A stretch of DNA of 64,000 nt from a bacterium BMS3Abin14 (GTDB taxonomy: Bacteria; BMS3Abin14). The number at the start of each line of letters is the position of its first letter. Positions within the stretch are counted from its first letter, which is position 1. Location of the stretch: NCBI GenBank assembly GCA_002897695.1, contig BDTG01000004.1, positions 1-64,000 on the forward strand, written 5' to 3'. Below are positions 46,301 through 62,063 of this stretch, piece by piece. The position numbers and the translations under genes are program-made. The notes beneath the pieces were generated by a model. It worked only from the letters and a program-made list of their open reading frames with translations, did not search any database and was not told where the DNA came from.

Positions 46301-49300
46301 CATTTTCTGCCCGGGGAAGAGCATGTAACTGGCAAGGTGCTGGAAACGACGGGCTTCCTCAGGCTGAATACGGAGGTGGCGGAGCTCAAGCTGCGACTGT
46401 CTCCAGGTCCGCTCAAGCGCGCGGTGAACCGCCTTCGGATCACTGTATTTATCCAGCAGGGCGAGAAGGGAATCCCTGGTTTCGGCGGCGCCCAATATGA
46501 TGGAGAAGGATACGGTCTGACCGGCCCTGAGCCTGATCCGGCGTCTCAGGCTGAACATGGGGTCAAGGACCATTCCCGTGGACCCGGACAGGGGATTTCG
46601 CAAAGCGTCCGGATTGCCTGGCGACCGCCCCCGCCCAATAAAACGGAGACGGTCGGTCTCCATCTGCCACGGTTCCTTTGATGGCTGATCGAATGTGATC
46701 AAATGCCCCGCCCACACCGGTTCGTCATCGGGGTTTCTACGCCGCCTCCCGGCAACGAGGGCATTGAGTTTTTCCACCCGCTCCGTGAAGACAAACATCT
46801 TCTGGAACGCCGGATGCATTCTGTCGGACCGATGGTCCGCCAGGGAGAGCTCGATGTAGCTCGTAATCTCCAGCACCCTCGGCCGGCCGGATCGATTGAC
46901 GATGGTCACGTGCCGGATCTCCACGTCGTCCTCGGGAGCAACGATGATCCGGCTCCCGGTTTCGATCCCTCCGTCGGAGCGCCTGATCTCCGCATGATCA
47001 AGGGTGAACCCGACGACATAGTTGTCCATTTTTCCGCCAACGGGCTGGTAGCTGTTGCTCCAGACCCTGTCTGTCTCCAGGTCGCGAATATAGCAGAAGG
47101 TACCCCACGCGTCCCGGGTGGTGTCGGCACGCCATCGGGTGAGATCGATCCCGCGCCAGCGGCTGTATCCGCCTCCGGCGTTGGTAACCATCAGGGAATA
47201 GTTCCCGTTGGATATTATCTGTGTCTTCGGTAATGCAGTGTGCGGGGTTCTGAATTTGCTCTCGGCGGGGACAAATTCAGTGGGCATCACGCTTGAGGAA
47301 GCCTGTTCCCGGGCCCGGACATGAAAGAGGGAAGGATTCGGTGGAATTCGCTCATAAAGCAGTGGTTCCAGCGCCTTCACACGCACATCCGAATGGAAGC
47401 GGCGCTGCATGACCTGATTGTGAAGGGCGTTGTCGATAGCAAGAAATCCCATGGCCTGATGATGGGCCATGTAGGTTCTGACAATCACCCCTTTGTCCCC
47501 CTGCCGTTTTTTACGGCGGGAAAAATCGATAGACTCGAAGAAACCGAACCTCCCATAAAGTCCCATCCCGGCAAGCCTGTTCAGATTTCCAATGGCTTCA
47601 GCGGGAACGAGGGACAGGGCCAGCATAGTAGCGTAAGGGGCGACAACCAGATCCTCATCCAGACCACGTTTGAGACCAAGTCCGGGGACCCCGAAGGCCT
47701 GGTACTGATAGATTTTGGAAGCATCCAGGTCGGCATAGGCGGATTCGGAAATACCCCAGGGTACTCCGCGCTGTTTTCCATATTTGATCTGGGTATCCAC
47801 AGCCTCACGGCAGGCCATGTCAAGCAGTGAGTTCTCGTAGTTTTTCTGAAAAAGAAGGGGCATGAGATACTCGAACATCGTCCCGCTCCAGCTGAGCAGA
47901 ACACGCCGGCGGCCCATTGCGCCGAAAGGCCGGGATAGCGCCATCCAGTGCTCGATGGGGACATCCCCCCTGGCCACAGCGACATAACTGGTTAGTCGGG
48001 CCTCGCTGGCCAGGAGATCATAAAAGGCGTTGTCAAGACGCTGATCGTTGATATTGAAACCTACGTGAAAGATCTTCCGTCTCTCATGGTAGAGAAATTT
48101 AAGGTTAATCCCGTCGGCAAGTTCCCTTCCCATCCTGATGAGGTCTTCGACATCTTCCAGGGTCTCCCATGCGGCCCATACAGCCGGGGCCATCGACTCT
48201 GTCAACCCTGCCGGATTACGGGAAGATGGGCTTCCATTTTCCGGCTGCCCGTCAATAACGGACTGGACAAAAGACGCGTTCTCCGCCGCGAGCTGACGGA
48301 GGGACGGCGCCTGATGGAGCAGTTTCCAATCCCTTCGCTCCCCGCCGGCGAGGGCCTCTATCTCCCCTGGATGGTTTTCAAAAAGCATCTCCGCCCATTT
48401 GAGATACCGGTCGATTATCTGATTCCATTCGGCGATTTGACTGTCGACCCGTGCCGCCCAGTAGGCAGCATCCTCAACAGGATTCAGTTCCTCATCATCC
48501 AGCTTGCGGTAATGCATTTGCGGATACCGGTCAACCTCGGCCCTGAGCCCAAGGACCATTTTCCCGGAGGGGGCGGCGATCTCCCTGATTCCTCTGATCA
48601 TCCCCTCCAGTTCGTCATGCGGATCCCCGGTAAGCTCCATCAATTCAGTAATGGTTTTCCCGAATTTGGAGGTGAGGCCCGCATCCCGGAGAGCGTCGCC
48701 GAGAATCAGCACCGTATCGTGAATCCCTCTGAATGTTCTGGGCCCTATTATCGGCTCATCCATCAGCTCTTTGAGCCCATGTTCCAGCGTCCAGAGACTT
48801 CCGATGAAGTTCCCGCTGTCCACGGTGGAGACGTACCCGGGCATCAAAGGCCGCAGGGTTGCCACATCATACCAGTTAAAAAGGTGCCCTTCGTACCGCT
48901 TCAGCTGTTTCAGTGTGGAATGGGTATTCCGCAGGCGCTGTGAAACTTCATCGAGGGTTATGAAACCGAAGTCCCCCGCGGCAAGCACCGTGAGCAGATA
49001 AAGCCCGATGTTCGTCGGACTGGTCCTGGGAGCTATCTCGTCCACATGTGATATCTGATAGTTGTCGGGAGGAAGCCAGTGGGTCCCGGTCCCGACAAAA
49101 TCATCGAATATCCGCCAGGTTTTCCTGGCAATCTTCCTCAGAACCAGGGCCTCACGGCGGGAAAACATCCTTTGCTTCCCCATAACCGTCAGATCCATTC
49201 GCCAGATGATAATTGGGCTGACAAGCCACAGGGCCAGGAAGGGAGCGGCCGGAACAAGGCTCAAGGGGTCCCTCAACCAGATCGCGGCAATCATCAGAAA

Positions 49301-52300
49301 GGCGAGGAATGCATTCCCCATTACCTGAGAAAAGAACTCGTGCATATGCTTCTTGGCTTTCGTCTTTGCCATCTGGGCGGTGGTCCAACGGAGGAGACCC
49401 TTGTGGCTGACAAAGCGGCGATATAGAACCCTGAGGATAGCGTCCGCCGCAAGGCCGGCCTGGTGAACCATGATTGCGATCTCGGCCAAAGAGCGGTTCA
49501 GATCATGTCGGAAGGATCGAAGAATGTTTTTCCTGACATCCCGGTTGGAGGTGAGCCAGGTTGACAGGTTTGCCATAAAAGCGGACATATACAGCAGCCC
49601 GACAAAACCACTGCACAAGAAACCTGCGGCAGGGGACATGAGCCAGGCGGCCGCCAGAAAAGGCACGGAAGCCACCGGCAGGAGGCTCCGGCGAAGATTG
49701 TCGAAAAATTTCCACCTGGCCATAGCCGAAAGCGGATTTTTTTCCCGCCTGCCGTCCTTGACCGGAACTTTCGATAGACACCACTGGGCGATCTGCCAGT
49801 CACCACGAATCCACCGGTGAGTCCTGAAACAGTAGGAATGATAGTCGGCGGGAAACTCGTCGAAAAGCTCGATATCGGTGGCAAGCCCCACCCGGGCGTA
49901 TGCCCCTTCCACCAGGTCGTGGCTGAGCAGGCGGCCATCCGGAAACCTGTTCCTGAGAACCTGTTGCAAAACCTTTGGATCGTATATCCCTTTCCCAAGA
50001 TATGACCCCTCCCCGGTAAGGTCCTGATAGACGTCGGAAACAGCCGTTGTGTAGGGGTCCGTACCCACCGGGTTGGTAAACAGCCGGCTGAACAAGGTGC
50101 CCGTGGCGCTGGGCAGGGAGGTACTGACCCGAGGCTGGATTACGGCATATCCGGAACGGACGACCATTTTTACGGGATCGATTACCGGTCTGTTAAGCGG
50201 GTGAGCCATAGTCTCTATAAGCCGGGCTCCGGTTCCATGGGGCAGCTGCGTGTCGCTGTCCAGGGTAATAACATACCGGATATCCGAGAGACGATCAGGG
50301 TCCCCAACGCGGACGATCTGCCGCCCATTCCGTGGTGATTCGCCGCAAATAAGGCGGTTCAGATCCTCAAGCTTGCCTCTTTTTCTCTCCCATCCCATAT
50401 AACGGTCCTCAGATTCCGCCCATTCCCTTTCCCGGTGAAAAAGGTAGAACCTGTTGGAACCGTATCGGTTGTTCAGCCTCTCAAGCCCTTTTTCCGCAAC
50501 ACTGAAAAGCTCCTCATCGTCCTCCCGGTGGGGTTCCACGTGATCCACAAAATCGGTGAACAACCCGAAGACAAGATTGTGGTCCGGATTTGCCTTGTAG
50601 CGTATTTCGAGGCTCTCCAGGTCCGACATGGCGCCGGCCCGGTCGGTGAGGAGAACAGGGACAACGACCAGGGTTCGAAACTCGTCGGGAATCCCTCTCT
50701 TCTGAAAAAACATCTTCGGCAGCTTCCTTGGCGGAAGAAGGCGGGTTACAAGGTAGTTGACCACCTGGACACCGAACTGGCTGGCCGGAACCAGGGAAAG
50801 AAGGACAAGGATCGCAAGGTAAGCAGGATTTGAGCCGAAGGATAGTCCCAGACCCAGGATAGTTCCCGTCACGGCGAGGGACACGGCGCCGATTGTGGTG
50901 AGATACAGGGAAGTGTGGCGCCTGTAGACCCACTGTAAAACCCTGTTGCGCCTGTTATCCCTGCATTCCAGTCTATCTAGGAGTTCTTCTTTCCCGTCAC
51001 CTATCAGATACCGCCCCACATGTGACGCCGACGGATCGGTTGACACACCGGAACCCTCCATGGCCATTTTTATGGCAAGCTGCGCAACTTCCCTTTCATC
51101 GTGTTTTCCGCATCTCGAAATCTCCTCCGCAGCTTTTCGATAGCTGTCCCTGGTGTAAAAATCCATGGATGAATATATCCCCATGGGGTCGTCACGGAGG
51201 ATCGCCTCCACGGAGCTTTGTTCCTCGAAAACCTCCCGCCAGTCAAACTGCTTAAGCCAACGGAGGCTCGTCATCCCGTTGCCTATGGCGATTTCGTCCG
51301 AGGTCTGGAGCGCCCTCTCCTCACTGATAATGCTCTCCAGCGGGGATCCGACTTTCCTCTCAAGCCATCCCCTGACCGGGTTGAGGATGGATTCCTCGTC
51401 ATAAATGTGATCGATAATCTGGAGGGCAAAGTTTGCGCTGGGATCGGGGAATTCCTCCGTGAGCCTGGACAGGATATTAAATATCTGATCGGGATCATTG
51501 CGCACGGCCACCGCAAGCCTGTTGGACCAGAAATCGGCGCTCTCACTCTCTCGCAGCCAGGAATCCACCTTCTCGAACAAACTGCGGAGGCGGTCCACAA
51601 GAGCGATACGCAGCATGATGGGCAGCGCCCACAACTCCCCGGTCGACAGGGAAGAGACAGACTGATATGCATCCAGAAAGTCACGGATGTTGTGACGATC
51701 CAGCTGACCGTCGGTGTGAATAACGAGTTCAGCGGCGATACCGTAAACCCGGGGATCACCTCTGTAAGGGCCTTCGGTCAGGACAGGAAGCTCATGATAA
51801 AACCTCTTCGACAGGTTCTCACGAACATCCGTGATGTGCCCATGAACGATAAAATAATTGTCCAGTATCCATTCAGCGGAGGTTGAGATGCTCTGTTCAA
51901 ACCGTGACGCTTCAGCCAGCGTCTGGCGGACCTCCAGAATTATCTTCTCGCAGATGGCAAGATGATCGAGAAGGGGCTCCCCCCTTCCCTCGGCAGGCTT
52001 GATGGAATGGGCCTCGGCAAGTTCTCTGGCATGTTCCTCGATGTGGGCGGTGGACAGCGGCTCGTCCTGGTCATTTTCGTCTGCCTTAAGATGAATCTTT
52101 CGAGCGGGATGAGAGGCGAATATGGTGGGCTGATCCCGGCTGATCCGTCGGAGCAGCGCAACGGCCCTCCCAATGGATCTGGGGGAGGCCTGGACAATGA
52201 CCACCGCCTCCTCGGCGATGAGACAGCGTGAATATCGCCCGAGAAGCTCCTGCTCCACCGCTATCCCGAGAAAACGGATAAACGCACGGTGGAAAACAAC

Positions 52301-52591
52301 CCCCAGTATGAAAGAAAAGACCAGGGTGATGGATGTGAAGAACAGGCTCTGGTTTAAGGAAAAACCCAGGAAGGCCGAAAAACCGTATACCAGCACGGGC
52401 ATAAAGATGCCGATAAACAGCCCCGCTATCAGCGCGTAAAATGATGAAACCTCATCGAAGGAGATCACACCGGCCGATGATCTTTGAATGAGCGCGGAAC
52501 GTCGGAAGTGATGTTTTCTCAACTGCTTCAATGCTTCCTCGGCGGCCTCTGCCGAAGGGTAGAATCCAAGAAGGGATCCTGATTTTCTCAT
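43337..52591 (-). CDS. Cyclic beta-1,2-glucan synthase-like giant protein (NdvB family)
   Basis: Encodes 3084 residues. Membrane segments at about 50-110 precede a long regulatory region. A second membrane block (about 560-625) leads to a GT84-type glycosyltransferase domain with DSDTQ (near 780) and HRWIRGDWQIAQW (near 930), then further membrane segments. A glucoamylase-like domain follows (THWLPPDNYQ near 1170). From about 1800 to the end lie two GH94/carbohydrate-binding regions with the catalytic GSGDWNDGMN motif near 2745. In rhizobia this enzyme primes, extends and cyclises osmoregulatory glucans. It is larger than or similar to classical NdvB. Co-transcription with cls suggests an envelope role. 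Confidence 0.92.
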   Translation of the reverse strand: MRKSGSLLGFYPSAEAAEEALKQLRKHHFRRSALIQRSSAGVISFDEVSSFYALIAGLFIGIFMPVLVYGFSAFLGFSLNQSLFFTSITLVFSFILGVVFHRAFIRFLGIAVEQELLGRYSRCLIAEEAVVIVQASPRSIGRAVALLRRISRDQPTIFASHPARKIHLKADENDQDEPLSTAHIEEHARELAEAHSIKPAEGRGEPLLDHLAICEKIILEVRQTLAEASRFEQSISTSAEWILDNYFIVHGHITDVRENLSKRFYHELPVLTEGPYRGDPRVYGIAAELVIHTDGQLDRHNIRDFLDAYQSVSSLSTGELWALPIMLRIALVDRLRSLFEKVDSWLRESESADFWSNRLAVAVRNDPDQIFNILSRLTEEFPDPSANFALQIIDHIYDEESILNPVRGWLERKVGSPLESIISEERALQTSDEIAIGNGMTSLRWLKQFDWREVFEEQSSVEAILRDDPMGIYSSMDFYTRDSYRKAAEEISRCGKHDEREVAQLAIKMAMEGSGVSTDPSASHVGRYLIGDGKEELLDRLECRDNRRNRVLQWVYRRHTSLYLTTIGAVSLAVTGTILGLGLSFGSNPAYLAILVLLSLVPASQFGVQVVNYLVTRLLPPRKLPKMFFQKRGIPDEFRTLVVVPVLLTDRAGAMSDLESLEIRYKANPDHNLVFGLFTDFVDHVEPHREDDEELFSVAEKGLERLNNRYGSNRFYLFHREREWAESEDRYMGWERKRGKLEDLNRLICGESPRNGRQIVRVGDPDRLSDIRYVITLDSDTQLPHGTGARLIETMAHPLNRPVIDPVKMVVRSGYAVIQPRVSTSLPSATGTLFSRLFTNPVGTDPYTTAVSDVYQDLTGEGSYLGKGIYDPKVLQQVLRNRFPDGRLLSHDLVEGAYARVGLATDIELFDEFPADYHSYCFRTHRWIRGDWQIAQWCLSKVPVKDGRREKNPLSAMARWKFFDNLRRSLLPVASVPFLAAAWLMSPAAGFLCSGFVGLLYMSAFMANLSTWLTSNRDVRKNILRSFRHDLNRSLAEIAIMVHQAGLAADAILRVLYRRFVSHKGLLRWTTAQMAKTKAKKHMHEFFSQVMGNAFLAFLMIAAIWLRDPLSLVPAAPFLALWLVSPIIIWRMDLTVMGKQRMFSRREALVLRKIARKTWRIFDDFVGTGTHWLPPDNYQISHVDEIAPRTSPTNIGLYLLTVLAAGDFGFITLDEVSQRLRNTHSTLKQLKRYEGHLFNWYDVATLRPLMPGYVSTVDSGNFIGSLWTLEHGLKELMDEPIIGPRTFRGIHDTVLILGDALRDAGLTSKFGKTITELMELTGDPHDELEGMIRGIREIAAPSGKMVLGLRAEVDRYPQMHYRKLDDEELNPVEDAAYWAARVDSQIAEWNQIIDRYLKWAEMLFENHPGEIEALAGGERRDWKLLHQAPSLRQLAAENASFVQSVIDGQPENGSPSSRNPAGLTESMAPAVWAAWETLEDVEDLIRMGRELADGINLKFLYHERRKIFHVGFNINDQRLDNAFYDLLASEARLTSYVAVARGDVPIEHWMALSRPFGAMGRRRVLLSWSGTMFEYLMPLLFQKNYENSLLDMACREAVDTQIKYGKQRGVPWGISESAYADLDASKIYQYQAFGVPGLGLKRGLDEDLVVAPYATMLALSLVPAEAIGNLNRLAGMGLYGRFGFFESIDFSRRKKRQGDKGVIVRTYMAHHQAMGFLAIDNALHNQVMQRRFHSDVRVKALEPLLYERIPPNPSLFHVRAREQASSSVMPTEFVPAESKFRTPHTALPKTQIISNGNYSLMVTNAGGGYSRWRGIDLTRWRADTTRDAWGTFCYIRDLETDRVWSNSYQPVGGKMDNYVVGFTLDHAEIRRSDGGIETGSRIIVAPEDDVEIRHVTIVNRSGRPRVLEITSYIELSLADHRSDRMHPAFQKMFVFTERVEKLNALVAGRRRRNPDDEPVWAGHLITFDQPSKEPWQMETDRLRFIGRGRSPGNPDALRNPLSGSTGMVLDPMFSLRRRIRLRAGQTVSFSIILGAAETRDSLLALLDKYSDPKAVHRALERTWRQSQLELRHLRIQPEEARRFQHLASYMLFPGQKMRSPEERLRQNVLGQAGLWAYGISGDLPILAVTLADSRDINLVTQLLQAHTYWRRHGFMADFLIINEESSGYDQPLHGQLTRLINGHTMYTGTEQPGGVFLRNADQIPEESLTLLLSAANVAMVAARGPLPQQLGAPPARRHLPVKHLPKRLPKEEASTALRHMELKLTNGMGGFSTDGREYVITLRSGEQTPAPWVNIMANPSFGCLVSESGAGFSWYGNSQRNRLTAWSNDPVSDPPSDAVYIRDEDSGIFWTPTPNPIREVEDYRVRHGAGYTVFEHNSHGIEQELTIFVPLGEDGSGDPVRIQRLRLKNDTPEARNLSVTFYLEWVLGEDRESSQMFVNTAWDSIAQMMMVTNRYNPDYPDRVAFASISPHPDSCTADRTEFLGRNGNLSSPEAMRRVSLSGKTGAGLDPCSAIQTMLTIPPGEKAEVICLLGQGASRDEARDLTRKYRHSVTVQESLNATMGWWDRLLGKVEIKTPVESVNLMVNRWLLYQVVSCRIWARSGFYQSGGAFGFRDQLQDVLALLYAYPRIARSHILTAAGRQFAEGDVQHWWHPPGGAGIRSRCSDDLLWLPYAVIRYVHHTGDAGILDEMVPFIWGEALDEDVHEAFMSPTETARKTTLYDHCMKAIERGATSGPHGLPLIGSGDWNDGMNRVGLGGKGESVWLAWFLVDVLRGFSELSRDRGRDEDSEAFRERAAGIAEAVEKSSWDGRWYRRAYFDDGTPLGSAQNDEDRIDSIPQSWAVISGGADGERSRQAVESAWDELVLKDEGLALLLTPPFDGSQKDPGYIKGYPPGVRENGGQYSHGAVWLAKALAGLGDGDRAVDLLTMLNPIEHAGDPEKMQRYRTEPYVMAADVYRLPGHVGQGGWTWYTGAAGWMYRVWIEDVLGIRVKGDRLMVDPVIPGSWDMFSVRYRRGKAIYEITVQNPDGVGKGVSWIEMDGRRLDENAVPLVEEEEAGIVEAAIKHKILVRMGEGRIKTDAGIT

Positions 52592-53183: not shown

Positions 53184-53318
53184 TTTACGCCTCCTGCTTT
53201 TTGATTATCTGCGACGGCCCGTTATGTGTCAAGGAAAGCGGAGCAGCCCTGTCCTTTTCAAACCCGCACTTTTGTGATAAAAAGAACATAAGTGTTTGTA
53301 TCTTCCGGGGGAGTAGAC

Positions 53319-54728
53319 ATGACAGGTGTGAAGGTTCTTATCGTCGATGATGAAGCCGTGATCCGGAGGGGACTCTGCCGTGTCCTTGAGGGAAGGGGCT
53401 ATCAGGTGGAAACCTCCGAAAGCGGTTTCATGGCCATCGAAAGGCTCCAGAAAACGCCCTTTGACATAGTCATCACTGACCTCAAAATGCCGGGAATGGA
53501 CGGGATCGAGGTACTGAAGGCCATCAAGATCCTGCAGCCGGCCGTGCCGGTCATCATCATTACCGGGTATTCCACCGTGGGGACAGCCGTGGAGGCCATG
53601 AAAAATGGGGCCTTCGACTATATTTCCAAACCCTTTACACCCGCACAGATCATCGAGATGGTTGAAAAGGCGCTGGAACAGCGAACCGTTCAGATGCAGC
53701 GCACCCATCCCGAGGTCGGGCACAACCTGAACGGGTTCGAGGTCTTTATCGGTGAGAGTGAAGCGATGCAGAAGGTATACATCAGGATCAAGCAGGTTGC
53801 GCCCACCGACAGTACGGTTCTTATCACGGGTCAGAGCGGAACCGGAAAGGAACTGGTTGCCAGGGCTATTCATAAGAACAGCATGCGCTGCAATAAGCCA
53901 TTTGTAGCTGTCGACTGCACATCCCTTGTGGAGAACCTTCTGGAGAGTGAACTGTTCGGCCATGTAAAAGGCTCCTTCACCGGGGCGGTACAGACTAAAA
54001 TGGGCCTGTTCAAGGTCGCAGACGGAGGGACCCTGTTCCTCGATGAGATATCCAACATCAGCCTGGCCACCCAGGGCAAACTATTGCGGGTCCTCCAGGA
54101 GTTCGAAATAACCCCCATCGGGGGAACCGAACCCCTCCCCATCGACATCCGTCTCATAACCGCCACCAACCGGGACCTGGATGAACTGGTCGATGAGGGG
54201 CTTTTCCGAAAGGACCTGTTCTTCAGGCTAAATATCATCCCTGTCCACCTGCCTCCCCTGGTTGATCGAAAGGGGGATCTTCCCCTTCTCATCGGACATT
54301 TCCTTAAAAAGTTCTCCGAGGAGATGGGCAAGGACATCCATGGGGTATCACCGGCCGCCATGTCCATCCTGACGCAGCATCCCTTCACCGGGAACGTCAG
54401 GGAGCTGGAAAATATTATCGAAAGAGCTGTCGTCCTCACCAACAGCAAGCTCATTCAACCTGAGGATCTGGAAATTCGGCCGGTCGGCGACAGTCCTTCC
54501 AAGACTATTTCCGAGCCTGTTCCCCTGAGCGCGGAGAGCCTGAAAGAGATCAAGAGACAGGTCAGAGAAGAAGCGGTCAGGCCCATTGAACGCGCCTTCC
54601 TTCTCCAGGCCCTTGAGCGAAACGACTGGAACGTCACCCGGGCCGCCAGGGATGTGGGAATGTTGAGGCCCAACTTTCAGGCGCTGCTAAAAAAACAGGG
54701 GATTTCCGCGAGGAACCATACAGGATGA
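53319..54728 (+). CDS. Sigma-54-dependent response regulator (NtrC family)
   Basis: Encodes 469 residues: a receiver domain (VLIVDDEAVIRR, phospho-acceptor Asp54 in VITDLKMPGMDG), an AAA+ domain (GQSGTGKE Walker A; sigma-54 contact loop GSFTGA instead of the usual GAFTGA; DGGTLFLDEI Walker B), and a Fis-type helix-turn-helix (NDWNVTRAARDVGMLRPNFQ). ATG at 53319 follows GGGGGAG. The kinase gene follows by 77 bases. Its target could be the -24/-12 promoter at 61989-62005 of the convergent operon. The Ser in the GAFTGA loop is a tolerated but less common variant. Confidence 0.93.
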   Translation: MTGVKVLIVDDEAVIRRGLCRVLEGRGYQVETSESGFMAIERLQKTPFDIVITDLKMPGMDGIEVLKAIKILQPAVPVIIITGYSTVGTAVEAMKNGAFDYISKPFTPAQIIEMVEKALEQRTVQMQRTHPEVGHNLNGFEVFIGESEAMQKVYIRIKQVAPTDSTVLITGQSGTGKELVARAIHKNSMRCNKPFVAVDCTSLVENLLESELFGHVKGSFTGAVQTKMGLFKVADGGTLFLDEISNISLATQGKLLRVLQEFEITPIGGTEPLPIDIRLITATNRDLDELVDEGLFRKDLFFRLNIIPVHLPPLVDRKGDLPLLIGHFLKKFSEEMGKDIHGVSPAAMSILTQHPFTGNVRELENIIERAVVLTNSKLIQPEDLEIRPVGDSPSKTISEPVPLSAESLKEIKRQVREEAVRPIERAFLLQALERNDWNVTRAARDVGMLRPNFQALLKKQGISARNHTG

Positions 54729-54805: not shown

Positions 54806-56359
54806 GTGCGTCTGAAACTGATCGTTCAGATCTCGCTGATTACAGGAATCGTCCTGTTTTTTACCTCCGCCCTTTTCGGTTATTTCAACATCTCCACCCT
54901 CAAACATGCCTTCCTCGAGAGTACAGTAACCGACCTCGACCATCTGAGCGAAACCATACTTAGAACCGTATTCCATCAGATGCTGAAAAACGACAGGGAT
55001 GAGATCCAGGTTACGATAAGGGAGGTCGCCCAACAGAAGGGGATTGAGCAGGTCAGGCTTATCAACAGAGAGGGAGTGGTGGCCCTCTCCACCGGAAGGG
55101 CTGGAATCAGCGCCGGCCCCGGTGGCGTAAAGGCCCCTGCCTGCATAATTTGCCATAACTATGGAATGTCCTGGGAAGATCCCTCCCCCATGGCCCGAAG
55201 CAGAATGTTCCTTGACAGTAACGGGAACAAAGTTCTCGGCCTGGTCAAGCCCATATATAATGAGAAGGTGTGCTGGACCGGTGAATGCCATACCCATTCC
55301 AGGGATACACATCTTCTGGGCCTTCTGGACATTACCATCTCCGCCGCCCCCATGCTGTCGAAGATCCGCAATTATCGCAACAATACAATCATTCAGATAC
55401 TTTTCCTGATCCTCTCCATATCACTCTGCCTCACCCTGCTCACCCAGAGGCTGATCGTCAAGCCGGTTCATACGCTGTTGGAACACACACGGGCCGTCGG
55501 CAGGGGAAAATGGCGTTTCATAGAGTCGGTGCCGGGGGATGAACTGGGGGAACTTGCCGAGGCGTTCAACGACATGACAGGCAAACTGAAAAAGGCCCGG
55601 GAGGAACGGGATGAGTGGGCAGCAACCCTGGAAACCCGCGTGGAGGAACGAACGCGCAAAATAAAGGAGATGCAGTCCGTTCTTATCCGCTCGGAAAAAC
55701 TGGCGTCCCTCGGGGAACTCGTCGCGGGGATCGCCCACGAGCTCAATAATCCTCTTACGGGGATCATGATACACGCTCCTTTCATCGCGGAGGACCCACG
55801 GCTGGACGAAGGGCTGAAAGAGGATTGCCAAACTATTATCCACGAGGCCAAGCGCTGCTCCAGGATCGTCAGGAAACTGCTGGACTTCGCCAGGGTTTCC
55901 GATCCCCAAAAAACGATGCAGTCGGTCAATGAGGCCATTAATCGAAGCATTGCCCTGATTGAGCACCATGCCGATTTCAACGACATCGAGATCGTCAAAG
56001 AGTATGCTCCTGACCTTCCGAATACATTGATGGACGCTTCCCAGATCGAACAGGTCTTCATCAACATGATGGTTAACGCTAGCCAGGCAATGCCGGCGGG
56101 GGGGAAGCTGACCATCGGAACGGGGTTAAATGCGGCAGGGGACAGCATCTACATCCGGATCGAGGACACAGGCTGCGGCATTCCGAAAGAAAACATGGAA
56201 AAACTCTTCGATCCCTTTTTCAGCACCAAGGGAAACAAGGGAACCGGCCTGGGCCTTTCGGTTTCCTACGGAATCATCCAGTCCCACGGCGGTGAGATCG
56301 AGGTTGACAGCAAGCCGGACAGAGGGACAGTCTTTATCATTACTCTTCCCGTCGCATGA
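54806..56359 (+). CDS. Sensor histidine kinase with periplasmic c-type haem motifs
   Basis: Encodes 517 residues. A membrane segment (7-27) precedes a periplasmic domain of about 165 residues containing CIICH (113-117) and CWTGECH (156-162), i.e. CxxCH and a Cx4CH variant. A second membrane segment (about 193-213), a HAMP linker and a coiled coil lead to the HisKA domain with AHELNNPLTG (His311) and an HATPase domain (N box MMVNASQAM, G1 DTGCGIP, G2 GTGLGLS). The haems, if attached, would let it sense redox state, NO/CO or quinol status. The start is GTG at 54806. It is paired with the upstream response regulator. Confidence 0.9.
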   Translation: MRLKLIVQISLITGIVLFFTSALFGYFNISTLKHAFLESTVTDLDHLSETILRTVFHQMLKNDRDEIQVTIREVAQQKGIEQVRLINREGVVALSTGRAGISAGPGGVKAPACIICHNYGMSWEDPSPMARSRMFLDSNGNKVLGLVKPIYNEKVCWTGECHTHSRDTHLLGLLDITISAAPMLSKIRNYRNNTIIQILFLILSISLCLTLLTQRLIVKPVHTLLEHTRAVGRGKWRFIESVPGDELGELAEAFNDMTGKLKKAREERDEWAATLETRVEERTRKIKEMQSVLIRSEKLASLGELVAGIAHELNNPLTGIMIHAPFIAEDPRLDEGLKEDCQTIIHEAKRCSRIVRKLLDFARVSDPQKTMQSVNEAINRSIALIEHHADFNDIEIVKEYAPDLPNTLMDASQIEQVFINMMVNASQAMPAGGKLTIGTGLNAAGDSIYIRIEDTGCGIPKENMEKLFDPFFSTKGNKGTGLGLSVSYGIIQSHGGEIEVDSKPDRGTVFIITLPVA

Positions 56360-56364
56360 ACCCA

Positions 56365-56880
56365 TCACTCATCCAGCAGCGCGAGGAGTTCCCGTTCCTG
56401 CCTTATTGCCTCACTGCAAACTGACCAGACCCGATAGTTCTCAAGACCGAGAATCGTCAGGCCCGCGAAGAACACCGGCCAGAAATTCTCCCGAAGCCCG
56501 CCGGCATAGTAGTAGAACAGATAAAATGCCGAAAGATACCCGATGTGCGACCAGCCCCGGTAGCGATCGGGGCCTGTGCTCAAATGGCCCAGGATGAGAG
56601 CGAGGGCGGAAAAGGCGTAGACGACCAGTGCGATGCTGATGAGGGTGGTGGGAGGGGAGCCGCCCAGAAGATGCCGCATTTTTTCGGAAATTGGGGGGAG
56701 AAACCGGAAATTTGCCACTGCCCCCAGGCTAACCAGGAAAAAAAGGACCATCCACCAAATACTGTAACGTATCTGTTGTTTAAGGTATCGGATTCGATCA
56801 AGGATTTTGCTGCGGCGCGAGTCCTGGCTCGGCACACCCTGTCCGGAGCCAAGCGATGACTTTGTTCCTGTTCTCGCCAT
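56365..56880 (-). CDS. Membrane protein of unknown function, four helices
   Basis: Encodes about 171 residues. A basic, probably cytoplasmic N-terminus (about 1-35, RIRYLKQQIRYSIW) precedes four hydrophobic helices, with short loops containing STGPDRYRGWSH and a C-terminal charged helix. I do not recognise a family. It follows the haem-sensor gene by 66 bases on the same strand and is the last gene of that operon. The start at 56880 is tentative. Confidence 0.6.
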   Translation of the reverse strand: MARTGTKSSLGSGQGVPSQDSRRSKILDRIRYLKQQIRYSIWWMVLFFLVSLGAVANFRFLPPISEKMRHLLGGSPPTTLISIALVVYAFSALALILGHLSTGPDRYRGWSHIGYLSAFYLFYYYAGGLRENFWPVFFAGLTILGLENYRVWSVCSEAIRQERELLALLDE

Positions 56881-56946
56881 AAGAGCACTCAGCTCGCCAT
56901 TTAGCCCGAGGACTTTCAAGGGTACTCGGGGCCACACCCAAGGGGA

Positions 56947-57804
56947 CTAAACCGGATCAACCTCCTCTTCTTTTGACATACTATCCTCTTCCCTGATTTT
57001 TCTCAATTCCATTTCAGCAAGATGTCTCCCCCTGGCCATGTCAAGATAGGTCCTTGCAAGTGACTCAACTTCCCTGACTCCTTTTGGAAGATCGTTATCC
57101 AGGCTCCCCTCGGAGACCTTTTTCACATAGTCCATCAACTGGCCAATCGGATGCAGAAGGTTCCGTCTGAGGATGGCGCTTACCCCGCCCACCGACAAGA
57201 TGAGAACCATTATGCAGAAAACCGTCATTCTCCAGCGCAGGGCGCGCAGTCTTGTGTCCAGAGGATCGGGCGACAGACCGACATCCAGTGTTCCGAGAAT
57301 TTTCTGGTGGGGAGGGTGAAAATGACAGTCACCCGCGGAGCATCCGGTATCGTTGTATATGGGCGCGGTGATAGCCAGCACATTGCGGTTCTTTTTATTT
57401 ACGAACCGCCTCGCCTGCTGCATGGACCCCAACCGTGCCGTCGGCTTGGAACCGCTGTGACACCCTATACAGCCGGCTGTCTTTTTGTCCACGACCTGGT
57501 TTACCTCCCCGGGGTCCGAGGAGAACATGATAACCCCTTTTTTATTGAAGATACGAAGATGCTCGACTCCCTTCTGGGCGCCGATACTGTCTATTACACG
57601 GTAAAGGGTTTCCCTGTCCGACTTCATCATGGTGTAGCGCGTTGAACTGATGACGGTATCGGCAAGGCTGACCTCATGCTGTATCGCATCCCTCAGAAGG
57701 TCCCCCTTAATGGAGGAGTAGAGAATGAGGCTGCAGACGATGACAAAGCCGGTCAGGGAAAGCGCGATCGGGACAATGGCTTTGGAAACGAAGTTGTTAA
57801 ACAT
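56947..57804 (-). CDS. Kinase-less membrane protein with the same haem sensor segment
   Basis: Encodes 285 residues. A membrane segment (11-31), a periplasmic domain with CIGCH (112-116) and CSAGDCH (155-161), a second membrane segment (about 194-212) and a HAMP-like helix pair follow, then a short charged tail with no output domain. Motif order, spacing (CxxCH then Cx4CH, about 43 residues apart) and flanking helices match the sensor half of the kinase at 54806-56359. ATG at 57804 follows AAAGGAGG. It may gate electron flow, act as a co-sensor, or carry signals to the kinase. Confidence 0.85.
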   Translation of the reverse strand: MFNNFVSKAIVPIALSLTGFVIVCSLILYSSIKGDLLRDAIQHEVSLADTVISSTRYTMMKSDRETLYRVIDSIGAQKGVEHLRIFNKKGVIMFSSDPGEVNQVVDKKTAGCIGCHSGSKPTARLGSMQQARRFVNKKNRNVLAITAPIYNDTGCSAGDCHFHPPHQKILGTLDVGLSPDPLDTRLRALRWRMTVFCIMVLILSVGGVSAILRRNLLHPIGQLMDYVKKVSEGSLDNDLPKGVREVESLARTYLDMARGRHLAEMELRKIREEDSMSKEEEVDPV

Positions 57805-57859: not shown

Positions 57860-59152
57860 TCAACCCTGAGGTGGTCTTGAGGTAGTCCTGTACGCCGCGG
57901 ACGGCGCTGCCCTCCACGGATACAGGATTGGGAGCCGGTAGAGGATAAAACGATACACCACCACGAACAGGGCAAACAATGTTACCGATATGATCAGTTC
58001 GAACGGGTGGGGGATTTCCTGATAAAGGTTCCAGTTGAAACTGATCAGGGCAGTATCCAGACGGTTCATCACCACACCAAAAATGGTGAGAAAAGCGGTA
58101 AACCGGGCCAGACCTACGCTGTTTTTCCTGATGGCGATGGAGAAGAGGATGAGGGGAAGAATTACCCCAAGGAAGATCTCCAGCATGAACAAACGACCCC
58201 AGCCGGTTGCCAGATAGGCCCACTCGTTGTCATGGGCAATCCCTATAAGCTTGATAGCCAGGTAGGTTATCAGAGCCATGGCTGAGCCTTTGGCCAGACT
58301 GATGGTAATGGTCCCGAGATTATCCAGAAACTCACGGCTGCATCTCCAGGCCATGGTTTTTTCAACAATGGTGCTCACCGCAATGATCATGCACAGCCCC
58401 GCGAATACCGATGAACAGAGAAAAAATATCCAGAGAAACTCCTGCGAATACCAGAGTGGATGCACCTTTCCCGGCGCATAGGTAAAGAGGGCTCCCAAGG
58501 CCCCCTGGTGGAGAGTTGACAGGATAATCCCGGCCACGGTCAGCCCGATGGTCCCACTTTTTATAAACTTCTTCGCGTTGGGCCAGTTGATCCATTCAAA
58601 AAACGACTCGGAAACTTCCATCATCTGCACTGACAGGTAGATCGCAACATGCCACCCGACCAGAAAGAGGACAGCAGCCGTACCCCAGGAAACAAACATG
58701 GGATAGTAGAGCCGCCACGGACGCCCAAGATCCATCAGGAGGTAAATAACCGCAAAGGAATATCCCATCAATCCGTTGAGCAGCGCCAGTTGCAATATGG
58801 GCTTGAATTTGCTCTGGCCAAACAGTTCCACCGCAGTACCGAGCAGAAACCCAGAGGCGGAGAGTGGGACCATTACGAAGAGTCCGAAACCCAGGAAAAG
58901 ACCCCACGGATAATCGTTGGAAGCGCGGGTAACGGCGCCGAGGCCCGCGGCATACCTGTACAGGATTAGAGGAAAGCCCACGGCAAAGATCAGGGCTATG
59001 ACCCAATTGAACGGGTTATGCAGGACCTGCCGCAAGTACTCCCTGGGCGAGAATCCCAGCAGAAGTTTCTGCCTGAAGCTCCACGTATGGCCATCATCAG
59101 GATCATTCAGAGAGTCGATCGGCCTAAAGCCATTTTCCACAAGGCGGTTCAT
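57860..59152 (-). CDS. NrfD/HybB-family quinone-interacting membrane subunit
   Basis: Encodes 430 residues with about ten membrane helices. Characteristic segments are DYPWGLFLGFGLFVMVPLSASGF, LMDLGRPWRLYYPMF and the LHQGALGALFTY loop. NrfD/HybB/HmcC proteins exchange electrons between menaquinol and the adjacent HybA-like Fe-S subunit. The last bases of the Fe-S gene overlap its start by four bases, so the two are translationally coupled. Confidence 0.92.
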   Translation of the reverse strand: MNRLVENGFRPIDSLNDPDDGHTWSFRQKLLLGFSPREYLRQVLHNPFNWVIALIFAVGFPLILYRYAAGLGAVTRASNDYPWGLFLGFGLFVMVPLSASGFLLGTAVELFGQSKFKPILQLALLNGLMGYSFAVIYLLMDLGRPWRLYYPMFVSWGTAAVLFLVGWHVAIYLSVQMMEVSESFFEWINWPNAKKFIKSGTIGLTVAGIILSTLHQGALGALFTYAPGKVHPLWYSQEFLWIFFLCSSVFAGLCMIIAVSTIVEKTMAWRCSREFLDNLGTITISLAKGSAMALITYLAIKLIGIAHDNEWAYLATGWGRLFMLEIFLGVILPLILFSIAIRKNSVGLARFTAFLTIFGVVMNRLDTALISFNWNLYQEIPHPFELIISVTLFALFVVVYRFILYRLPILYPWRAAPSAAYRTTSRPPQG

Positions 59153-60096
59153 TCTCCCTGGCCCTCCTCTCCATTATGCGGCTCTTTATCTTCCGTTTCT
59201 TCCTTTCCCCCGGTCGCCAGCAGGTGAAATCCCATAAACATGGCGGGCCAGATGGCCAGGACCATCGGCACGGTGGAAAGGAAACTCTTTGCGTTGTCCA
59301 GGATCGGATGGTGCTGAAGGGTGGTGTCGAAACCCACCTGGTCGAAAGGAACGCCGGAAAGGTACATCCAGGACGTTCCGCCTACCTCCGTCTCCCCGTA
59401 GACATAGTCTATATACTTCTCGGGTTCCGACCGGATCCGCTCATGGGCGATCTTTATGAGGGTTTTCCGGTGGCCAAAGGTGAGGGTCTCCTGGGGGCAA
59501 GCCTCTACACAGGCGGGAGGCTTCCCATATTTCAGGCGGGTGTCGTAGCAGAAGATACATTTTCTTATCCTGGGCTCGAAAGCGCTGGAATAGGAGAATG
59601 CCGGGATTCGGAAGGGACAGGCGATCATGCAGTTTCTGCATCCGACACAGACATTCGGGTTGTAGATAACCGCTCCCTCATCTGTCTTAGTGTAGGCGTT
59701 GACGAAACACGAGGTCAGACATGCCGGTTCGTTGCAATGGTTGCACTGGATCTTTCGATAGACCGGCCCGCCTGATCCCTCCGTCTCATATCGGTTGACG
59801 ACCGTGTAGGCCCCCTCGTCGGTTCTGCGCTTCTGTGTGCCTTCGTGGAAGGTCTGGTCAAAAACCGAAGGATCGTCGAAGGGAAGGTCGGGCTCAGGAA
59901 GGCCCTGTTCCAGGTTGCACGCCGCCTCGCAGGTTCGGCAGCCGACACACCTGGTCAGGTCCACCAGCACCCCCATCCCCTCCGGGTAACCCTCGAACTC
60001 AGCCATGCCCAGGGCATTTTTGGTTGAGAACAACACCAGGGCGCTGCCGCCGGCAACGGTTGCCTTCAGGAATCTTCTCCGGCTTATACCACTCAT
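59149..60096 (-). CDS. Tat-exported four-cluster Fe-S subunit (HybA/HmcB-like)
   Basis: Encodes about 315 residues. The Tat signal is SRRRFLKATVAGGSALVLF. Cluster motifs are CVGCRTCEAACNLEQ, CNHCNEPACLTSC, CVGCRNCMIACPFR and CIFCYDTRL...CVEACP, i.e. four [4Fe-4S] sites. A C-terminal membrane anchor (about 268-290) and an acidic tail follow. It would link periplasmic cytochrome haems to the NrfD subunit. The start at 60096 places the Tat motif at the N-terminus. Confidence 0.92.
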   Translation of the reverse strand: MSGISRRRFLKATVAGGSALVLFSTKNALGMAEFEGYPEGMGVLVDLTRCVGCRTCEAACNLEQGLPEPDLPFDDPSVFDQTFHEGTQKRRTDEGAYTVVNRYETEGSGGPVYRKIQCNHCNEPACLTSCFVNAYTKTDEGAVIYNPNVCVGCRNCMIACPFRIPAFSYSSAFEPRIRKCIFCYDTRLKYGKPPACVEACPQETLTFGHRKTLIKIAHERIRSEPEKYIDYVYGETEVGGTSWMYLSGVPFDQVGFDTTLQHHPILDNAKSFLSTVPMVLAIWPAMFMGFHLLATGGKEETEDKEPHNGEEGQGE

Positions 60097-60147
60097 AATG
60101 TTCCAGCCCCCTTTCCATGTCGCAAGACGATCCCTTTCCATGAGAAC

Positions 60148-60675
60148 CTATTCATGCTGCCCTCCGATCCCGCCGCCTGAAGGCGCATATTTGCCGGAAT
60201 GATAGAATTTATTGCCCGCATCAGTCCTTTTGTGACAGTCCGTACACCCTGAGGGCGCTCCCATTTCAACGTGGCAATTGAGGCATCTCAGGTGATAGGC
60301 GCCTTTGAGTCCAGGTATGTCGTTATGAAACCGATCCGGATCGGACTCCATCGCCTTGATATGTTTTGCGGTGAAAGGATCTTTAACGTGGCAATCCGGG
60401 CAAGCCGCGGAGGATGTGCCTTTGTTATCCGAATGGCATTTCGCACATTTTTTCTCCGCAACGTTCGCTCCAAACGCGTGATGATGGCAGACAGAGCAAT
60501 CGTCCGCGATGTTCATGTGCATCGCGTGGTCAAAATCCACCCCACCGTAGAGGTTGGACAGGGAGTCTATCAGCAAGGATGAGGGCGGATCACCGGCGGC
60601 GCCGAAAGTTGGACCGGCGATAAAAAACAGCGCCACGATCATCCCTGCCAGTGCCCATTTCCTTCTCCTTTTCAT
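60148..60675 (-). CDS. Pentahaem cytochrome c (class III-like)
   Basis: Encodes about 175 residues. A signal peptide precedes five CxxCH motifs (CSVCH, CAKCH, CPDCH, CLNCH, CTDCH) interspersed with extra histidines suitable as distal ligands. ATG at 60675 follows GGGAGGG. It is the periplasmic electron carrier of the complex with the HybA- and NrfD-like proteins. Compared with the Hmc complex, which has a 16-haem cytochrome, this one is much smaller. Confidence 0.9.
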   Translation of the reverse strand: MKRRRKWALAGMIVALFFIAGPTFGAAGDPPSSLLIDSLSNLYGGVDFDHAMHMNIADDCSVCHHHAFGANVAEKKCAKCHSDNKGTSSAACPDCHVKDPFTAKHIKAMESDPDRFHNDIPGLKGAYHLRCLNCHVEMGAPSGCTDCHKRTDAGNKFYHSGKYAPSGGGIGGQHE

Positions 60676-60706
60676 CCGTTCGTCCCTCCCATGGTGTGCA
60701 GACTCG

Positions 60707-60904
60707 TTATTTATCATGTCTCTCATGTTTCCCGACATCCCCCCGGTATTTGATAACGTCCCTGTAAAATATCGGAAACACTACGAAAAACCCGAGGCAG
60801 ATAAGGTATTCGACGGCCTTGACATAATTATAGTAGTCCACAAGAGTGTGTATCTGCACCAATCTGCCGATGAAATCGAAAAACTCTGTTATCAGATGGA
60901 CCAT
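60707..60904 (-). CDS. Small membrane protein, 65 residues
   Basis: An ATG at 60904 follows AAGGAG with seven bases of spacing. The product has an aromatic, amphipathic N-terminus (MVHLITEFFDFIGRLVQIHT), one membrane helix (YLICLGFFVVFPIFYRDVI) and a basic tail with several His. It is co-directional with the cytochrome gene (31-base gap). Small one-helix subunits such as HmcD occur in related complexes, and this may be the equivalent. No homology could be tested. Confidence 0.7.
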   Translation of the reverse strand: MVHLITEFFDFIGRLVQIHTLVDYYNYVKAVEYLICLGFFVVFPIFYRDVIKYRGDVGKHERHDK

Positions 60905-60925: not shown

Positions 60926-61183
60926 TTATTCGCCCATCCGGGTGGATTCGGTCGCCGGGATCTCTTTTCTGGAATGGCCGGTCACCAGCGCCTTCATGAA
61001 ACCAAGGAACAGCACAAGGGCCGGGACCAACTGGGCCACAACGATCAGCGCACAGACACCGATAAAGATGCTTACAAGAATTCCGCTCTTGTAAACCACC
61101 GAGGTGTCCACGGCGAACGCCGGGCTTATGGCCGCCAGAACCGCAGCCAGAGCCAACGAGATTGTCGAGATAACCGTTTTCAT
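60926..61183 (-). CDS. Small exported membrane protein, paralogue 2
   Basis: Encodes 85 residues with a cleavable-looking signal (MKTVISTISLALAAVLAAIS, ending AFA), a short exposed segment and one long helix (IFIGVCALIVVAQLVPALVLF). The helix shares IFIGV.A.IV..QL.PA.VLF with the protein at 61683-61931. GGAGAGGA lies upstream of the ATG. Function unknown; the pair flanks the receiver-like protein. Confidence 0.75.
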   Translation of the reverse strand: MKTVISTISLALAAVLAAISPAFAVDTSVVYKSGILVSIFIGVCALIVVAQLVPALVLFLGFMKALVTGHSRKEIPATESTRMGE

Positions 61184-61204: not shown

Positions 61205-61639
61205 CTACCCCTGTTGCATCTCCCCGCTCGGTTTCCCCGGCAGGACCTTTCTGGACAGCCTCCTGTCCGTTGAGTTATCGAAGGCACAGTGGACCACCTG
61301 TCTCAGTTCCTCCCTGTCATCGCTGTTAACGGGCTTTAAGGCATGGTAGAAGATCCCCTCTCGACGGAACCTTCGGATGAGGGGCAGGGACTCCTCATTT
61401 GATACGAGGATAATGATCAAATCCCGGTTGCACCTCTTCAAAAGGGGGATAATTTCCCTTGCCGATAATCCGTCGAACTCACTGCCCAGCAGGATGACCT
61501 TGGCCTCTTTCTTCAGGACATCACGAAGGACCACATCCACGGAATCCGCCTCGATAACCTCGTACTCGCTCCTGCTGAAAAACCCGGCGATCCGTCTGCG
61601 AGTCTCCTCATCCTTGTCCGCTACGAGAAGAAGCTGCAT
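61205..61639 (-). CDS. Receiver-like domain protein lacking the phospho-acceptor Asp
   Basis: Encodes 144 residues with a CheY-like pattern: LLLVADKDEETRRRI at the N-terminus, hydrophobic beta strands, and a conserved Lys in YHALKPVNSDDRE (the KP pair). The position normally held by the phospho-acceptor Asp (end of strand 3) reads VILLGSEFDG, so the acid is replaced by Gly/Ser. The acidic pocket at the start is partly retained. ATG at 61639 follows GGGGGAAGG. It is a probable pseudo-receiver that signals without phosphorylation. Redox operons of the Hmc type also encode a response regulator (rrf1). Confidence 0.75.
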   Translation of the reverse strand: MQLLLVADKDEETRRRIAGFFSRSEYEVIEADSVDVVLRDVLKKEAKVILLGSEFDGLSAREIIPLLKRCNRDLIIILVSNEESLPLIRRFRREGIFYHALKPVNSDDREELRQVVHCAFDNSTDRRLSRKVLPGKPSGEMQQG

Positions 61640-61682
61640 GGTCCTTCCCCCTTTCCAGGAAATACCCTGGCAGGTCATCCAA

Positions 61683-61931
61683 TCAGGAGACGCCGGACTT
61701 TCCATTCTCCGTCGCTCTCCCATGGTTTTTCGCCTTTCCGAAAATGGCCACCAGCATAGACCCGAAAAGAACCATAGCCGGGATCAACTGGAAGGCAACA
61801 ATGGCAGCGATAACTCCGATAAAAATCCATCCAATTAGACCGATGCCCCCACTTTCTGCGCCGCTCGCAGCAAAAGCCGAATTCGCGCACAGGAGGGTCA
61901 TCAACGTTACGACTCGAACCGTGTTTTTCAT
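61683..61931 (-). CDS. Small exported membrane protein, paralogue 1
   Basis: Encodes about 82 residues: a signal peptide (ending NSAFA), a Gly-rich turn, and the helix GLIGWIFIGVIAAIVAFQLIPA shared with the protein at 60926-61183. AAGGAGGTGAGAACA directly precedes ATG 61931. It is the first gene of the electron-transfer operon, downstream of the -24/-12 promoter. Function unknown; the duplication suggests a structural role in the complex. Confidence 0.78.
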   Translation of the reverse strand: MKNTVRVVTLMTLLCANSAFAASGAESGGIGLIGWIFIGVIAAIVAFQLIPAMVLFGSMLVAIFGKAKNHGRATENGKSGVS

Positions 61932-61988
61932 TGTTCTCACCTCCTTCGTTCCAGGAAAGCCTCCTGTTCCCCTTGTCGCTTCTCTTTA

Positions 61989-62005
61989 CGCATAAAACGT
62001 TCCAA
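61989..62005 (-). promoter_or_regulatory. Candidate sigma-54 (-24/-12) promoter
   Basis: The minus strand reads TTGGAACGTTTTATGCG. GG and GC are separated by the obligatory 12 bases, and the -24 half (TTGGAACG against TTGGCACG) has one mismatch. The -12 half (ATGC against TTGC) is weaker. It would start transcription about 50 bases before the ATG at 61931. A sigma-54-dependent regulator is encoded nearby at 53319. Confidence 0.5.
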
Positions 62006-62027: not shown

Positions 62028-62063
62028 TTACGTAACACATTGAAATTACAAGATTTTACGTAA
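62028..62063. promoter_or_regulatory. Paired TTACGTAA palindromes, candidate activator sites
   Basis: Two perfect copies of TTACGTAA (62028-62035 and 62056-62063) lie 28 bases apart, roughly 50 and 78 bases upstream of the predicted transcription start at the -24/-12 promoter. Spacing upstream of the promoter suits enhancer-type sites for an NtrC-family protein. The binding factor is inferred, not shown. Confidence 0.5.

Follow-up and report, generated by a model that had tools for sequence, protein, structure and literature searches.

The 64,000-nucleotide stretch of the bacterium BMS3Abin14 analyzed here (contig BDTG01000004.1, positions 1 to 64,000; hereafter the window) carries two genes, on opposite strands, whose products share a periplasmic segment with two predicted haem-attachment motifs. 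One product is a sensor histidine kinase (HK), while the other (KL) is kinase-less:

54806..56359, + strand: HK, sensor histidine kinase with predicted dihaem Cache domain, HAMP, HisKA and HATPase; 517 aa
56947..57804, - strand: KL, kinase-less predicted dihaem Cache-HAMP membrane protein, CbcD-like; 285 aa, start MFNNFVSK

On the basis of the open reading frames and Pfam matches, HK is built in the order transmembrane (TM) helix, Cache domain, TM helix, HAMP, HisKA, and HATPase. KL corresponds to the first half of HK and stops soon past HAMP; HisKA and HATPase are matched in HK only. Pfam detects HAMP in both proteins (HK, 34 bits; KL, 25.5 bits, i.e., at the cut-off of 25), which bears out the HAMP-like linker proposed for each in the first-pass annotation of this DNA. 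The haem motifs are found at residues 113-117 (CxxCH) and 156-162 (Cx4CH) in HK, and at residues 112-116 and 155-161 in KL. The spacing between them is 38 residues in both proteins (about 40-45 in the first-pass annotation). Over nearly the full length of the segment, KL and HK align with 30% identity (E 1e-30), in keeping with the earlier suggestion of a common haem-motif segment in one protein with and one without a kinase. This E value and the conservation of the motifs rule out a chance resemblance, and the alignment gives KL and HK a common origin.

The motifs are conserved well beyond the window. In a first set of 42 full-length KL orthologues and 49 HK, the six Cys/His positions of the two motifs are invariant in 42/42 KL; the corresponding count for HK, 49/49, is circular and no proof by itself, since the HK group was defined by its haem motifs. 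In a second set, taken by position with no motif filter (20 kinases and 17 KLs), both sites are present in 20/20 kinases and 14/17 KLs. Loss of a whole site always concerns haem 1, with Cx4CH kept (KL of loci L146 and L147; HK of L158, L177, and L178), and the KL of L139 has a Cx3CH variant. A claim of both motifs in every HK, circular where the first set is concerned, is thus contradicted by L158, L177, and L178. Distant mono-haem kinases, one of which is an HK relative encoded in the same genome as the window (G000, C8:5300-6010; L003), have CxxCH at the position of Cx4CH. Because whole-site losses hit haem 1 and the mono-haem kinases carry their motif at the Cx4CH position, haem 2 appears to be the core site and Cx4CH very probably a genuine haem site. 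That Cx4CH is a known attachment variant, as stated earlier, agrees with the two occurrences of CXXXXCH in cytochrome c3 (PMC10454114). Moreover, an HxH beside Cx4CH is nearly invariant, and together with the second haem it suggests a bis-His low-spin haem. The motifs thus predict haem attachment in both KL and HK.

AlphaFold models of the two proteins (pLDDT 77 and 83) place both periplasmic domains in one Cache fold with the same order of helices and strands. This was the structural comparison that the first-pass annotation had proposed, and the matching models together with the homology rule out unrelated folds. In the models, haem 1 would lie in the stretch that joins strands 2 and 3, and a short helix separating the last two strands would hold haem 2. 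Foldseek ranked WalK first and returned the haem sensors GSU0935 and GSU0582 as well; profile searches recovered the latter two again, weakly, and a single-sequence search of the PDB gave chance matches only. The Pfam model Mcp40H-20_sensor was matched in most members, below its cut-off wherever a score was printed, and DUF3365 was not among the matches listed, so that a match to the curated sCache_heme model at its cut-off was not obtained. The shared domain is, on these models, recognizable as a haem-Cache domain. Like the sCache_heme proteins (DUF3365/Tll0287) and the Mcp40H-20 sensors GSU0582 and GSU0935, of which the last two are its best haem-bearing relatives by profile and fold, it is a Cache/PAS-like domain of the periplasm in which a predicted haem motif sits between late strands. 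However, these sensors have one haem motif, whereas HK and KL have two, the second being Cx4CH. At the canonical CxxCH position of the sCache_heme late-strand insertion, HK and KL carry Cx4CH, and the mono-haem kinase relatives CxxCH.

Matches are present in 11 of the 12 genomes examined from the small phylum to which the source belongs. In the class that includes L043, 201 of 277 genomes gave matches, usually two (199 with the HK sensor as query). Linkage was followed in the 91 Desulfuromonadia genomes with both genes among the matches listed. KL and HK share a contig in 63 of these, never more than 19 kb apart (median 8.1 kb). Most of the remaining 28 have the genes split over contigs, though in G187, G208, and G232 they are on separate long contigs. 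In a tree, the KL proteins form one clade (SH-aLRT 100) and the paired kinases another (99). Kinases from other phyla without KL, several of which adjoin HybA/NrfD genes, fall outside both clades. The two clades indicate, as the simplest history, one old kinase duplication followed by loss of the kinase core; the tree comes from a short search in which several long branches meet, and the exact root is unsure.

The other parts of the locus are as follows:

53292..54728, + strand: sigma-54-dependent response regulator (receiver, AAA+, Fis helix-turn-helix), presumed HK partner; just upstream of HK and kept beside it
56365..56937, - strand: smallTM, small integral membrane protein, CbcE-like by position; last operon gene
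57860..59152, - strand: NrfD/HmcC-like membrane quinone-interacting subunit (HmcC model, 352 bits, below the equivalog cut-off of 550)
59149..60141, - strand: HybA/HmcB-like Fe-S subunit with Tat signal (HmcB model, 385 bits, below the cut-off of 420)
60148..60738, - strand: five-CxxCH c7/c3-type cytochrome
60926..61183, - strand: mem1, small membrane protein conserved in the locus
61205..61723, - strand: RRsh, stand-alone pseudo-receiver with the phospho-acceptor Asp replaced
61683..61940, - strand: mem2, small membrane protein, first operon gene
61989..62005, - strand: putative sigma-54 -24/-12 promoter TTGGAACGTTTTATGCG upstream of mem2, from a comparative scan

KL is not the final part of the electron-transfer operon, as had been assumed, because the smallTM gene (56937-56365) follows about 10 bp downstream. 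The assignment of the kinase to a regulatory pair agrees with the response regulator gene just upstream: by Pfam, a HisKA and HATPase kinase adjoins an AAA+/Fis regulator, i.e., a sigma-54 two-component pairing. Upstream of the first operon gene, the -24/-12 site scores better than most shuffled sequences (p < 0.05) in 18 of 19 loci, including the window, and the sites across loci are often near consensus (TTGGCACG-N5-TGCT). Taken alone, the site in the window is not unusual, and a strict sigma-54 consensus scan of the window returned nothing at the operon. The linkage suggests that the sigma-54 regulator of HK probably controls the operon. A sigma-54 response regulator beside a Cbc-type operon is also the arrangement in the BccR/CbcBA regulation of Geobacter, to which the window is likened by gene context. 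A search for a shared enhancer palindrome found none.

A few features of the locus stand apart from these points. In about 35 aligned orthologues of RRsh, the phospho-acceptor Asp is changed to Gly, Ser, and similar residues within a conserved motif, and RRsh reads as a conserved pseudo-receiver inside the electron-transfer operon. The mem1 and mem2 proteins seem to be related; in most loci they lie on either side of RRsh, in L041 they are duplicated, and neither gave a convincing family match. Upstream of the sigma-54 site, TTACGTAA (62034-62063, - strand) is present in two copies that are not conserved in orthologous loci. Farther away, 43337-52591 (- strand) encodes a 3084-aa protein that looks like a putative glycosyltransferase of the cyclic glucan synthase type.

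Across genomes, the neighbors of KL vary around one constant partner, smallTM, which adjoins it in every operon locus examined. The search for KL near HybA/NrfD genes, put forward in the first-pass annotation, returned the c7-HybA-NrfD module in the window and about 20 other loci. About 20 loci instead have a CbcA-CbcB module, often plus a 9-12-haem cytochrome, and in L169 KL stands with a CbcL-like 9-haem plus b561 protein. KL and smallTM are also kept in three genomes (G255, G257, and G260) without a detectable paired kinase, NrfD, or CbcB. In these, a close orthologue of the regulator was not detected (best identity 45-49%, vs 68-69% in control genomes). In L170, from a genome with no paired kinase, KL-smallTM is followed by a gene for a FeoB ferrous iron transporter (L170:12962-14953). 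Second, orphan KL copies occur in L149, L150, L151, L154, and L156, near a gene for an approximately 1079-aa GAF and SpoIIE phosphatase protein; three orphan KLs beside this gene have no HAMP. L158 has a second CbcA-CbcB-smallTM-RRsh copy with no KL in the stretch read, and the haem-1 site of the kinase nearby is CxxCN.

The arrangement with CbcA-CbcB relates KL to a described protein. Geobacter sulfurreducens CbcD (GSU0591) is annotated as a cytochrome c subunit of Cbc5 that has a HAMP domain and two haems (PMC7894505), and Cbc5 is cbcEDCBA (PMC11434368). KL likewise has HAMP and two predicted haem-attachment sites, and like CbcD it would be a HAMP dihaem c-type protein encoded next to a small membrane protein gene in a menaquinol oxidoreductase operon. 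Hence, KL is very probably a CbcD-type protein, likened to GSU0591 by annotation and gene order. The Cbc5 order (CbcA-CbcB-12-haem-KL-smallTM) is present in the orthologous loci L134, L155, and L157, while in the window c7-HybA-NrfD stands in place of CbcA-CbcB-CbcC. The window does not have the full Cbc5 set (CbcA with 7 haems, CbcB, CbcC with 12 haems, and CbcE), and CbcB has no match in the source genome. The HybA and NrfD genes of the window recall the HmcB-like and HmcC-like subunits of the Hmc/NrfD-HybA menaquinone-cytochrome c oxidoreductases. Hmc, however, has the 16-haem HmcA, whereas the window has a five-haem c7-type cytochrome, with the HmcB and HmcC scores below the equivalog cut-offs.

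Constraint on KL and HK was compared in 28 genomes with both proteins as mean pairwise identity, with bootstrap over genomes. For the Cache domain, the level of conservation is the same in the two (KL 0.47, HK 0.46; difference +0.01, 95% -0.04 to 0.06). All other regions differ, with bootstrap ranges that exclude zero. The identity of TM1/TM2 is 0.58/0.58 in KL vs 0.38/0.41 in HK (+0.20/+0.18), and the KL helices carry conserved KL-specific motifs that are absent from HK. The order is reversed for HAMP AS1 and for the connector plus AS2, at 0.33/0.23 in KL vs 0.48/0.49 in HK (-0.15/-0.26). HAMP was found in 24 of 41 KL vs 46 of 49 HK; in KL it is degenerate, and absent in some copies, rather than a signaling-competent domain under selection. 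Judged by these identities, the surface of KL that is under constraint no longer lies in the cytoplasm but in the membrane, a shift that fits a subunit of a complex.

The same data bear on two other views of KL. Loss of the kinase core and a weakening HAMP are what a decaying, functionless relic of a kinase would show. We regard this as scarcely credible, given a Cache domain as conserved as in the kinase, nearly invariant haem motifs, and highly conserved TM helices in many genomes; a pseudogene reading is contradicted by that conservation. KL might also be a signaling receptor, with a partner yet to be named, whose domain has an open haem that binds NO or some other ligand; such sensing is reported for sCache_heme proteins that have TM helices and HAMP. 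KL and HK do belong to the same broad fold group as those proteins. Gas sensing nevertheless seems quite improbable: the setting is a quinol-oxidizing operon, the second haem and the nearly invariant HxH would favor a bis-His low-spin haem, and the HAMP of KL is degenerate.

The first-pass annotation suggested a co-sensor or decoy design, with the redox state of one dihaem domain read by both the complex and the kinase. The use of one such domain in both the kinase and a protein of the electron-transfer operon is supported, as are the conservation of this arrangement in many genomes and the probable sigma-54 control, and a redox domain common to complex and kinase is a reasonable idea. The decoy or co-sensor acting through HAMP is weakened, because the HAMP of KL has decayed, its TM helices are unusually conserved, and KL persists in the three genomes without a detectable paired kinase or close regulator orthologue. 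These observations agree better with a subunit of a membrane complex than with a decoy. A feedback partner could also act otherwise, by forming KL-HK heterodimers through the Cache domains or the TM helices and so damping or tuning the kinase output, KL being made by the kinase's own target operon, or by reporting the redox state of the complex. The shared domain, the location of KL in the probable target operon, and the linkage (on one contig in 63 of the 91 Desulfuromonadia genomes, with the rest mostly split contigs) speak for this possibility. It appears rather unlikely to us, as the HAMP is decayed or deleted, the TM motifs of KL are absent from HK, KL persists where the paired kinase was not found, and the haem-1 losses of KL and HK fall in different genomes.

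The interpretation toward which we lean, with confidence somewhat better than even, is that KL is a membrane redox subunit derived from the sensor half of the kinase that probably controls its operon. The locus would then be a redox-regulated inner-membrane electron-transfer operon. The dihaem Cache domain of HK would sense the periplasmic redox state (or a small molecule at the haem), and HK would phosphorylate the sigma-54 regulator, which in turn may switch the operon on from the -24/-12 promoter. KL would descend from the sensor half of the kinase itself and, having shed the kinase core, would have been taken into service as a dihaem c-type subunit anchored in the membrane. Together with its partner smallTM, encoded next to it, KL would serve menaquinol oxidoreductase modules, here c7-HybA-NrfD, and would most likely pass electrons from the complex to periplasmic cytochromes, or dock these.

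Several points weigh against a subunit role. About half of the KLs keep a recognizable HAMP, which is superfluous for an electron-transfer subunit, and the near-constant linkage of KL and HK is also expected of a co-sensor. KL joins modules of differing make-up, and none is adjacent in G260, so that no single enzyme has it as a core subunit. Moreover, the genomes said to be without HK may be incomplete, and biochemical evidence for KL in a complex was not found in the literature searched. In an unlikely extension of the scheme, KL in the oxidoreductase and HK in the membrane would use their Cache domains to trade electrons or to form a pair, so that the redox load of the enzyme directly sets the transcription of its own operon. 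If true, such a contact would work whichever quinol-oxidizing module is plugged in.

CbcD-type proteins, to which KL very probably belongs, and the haem-Cache domain are already described. The pairing of kinase and subunit, the swapping of quinol-oxidizing modules while KL-smallTM stays constant, and the move of constraint out of HAMP and into the membrane were not found in the limited literature searched. The bacterium itself probably respires through electron-carrying haem proteins. Descent of KL from a kinase offers a reason for the HAMP of CbcD, as a kinase inheritance that is now being lost. More generally, the KL-HK pair would be a case, spread over many genomes, in which a sensor-kinase domain was duplicated, became an apparent respiratory component, and was kept beside its parent kinase. 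It may give a handle on how metal-reducing and related bacteria match their inner-membrane electron exits to redox conditions, a question for the Cbc complexes.
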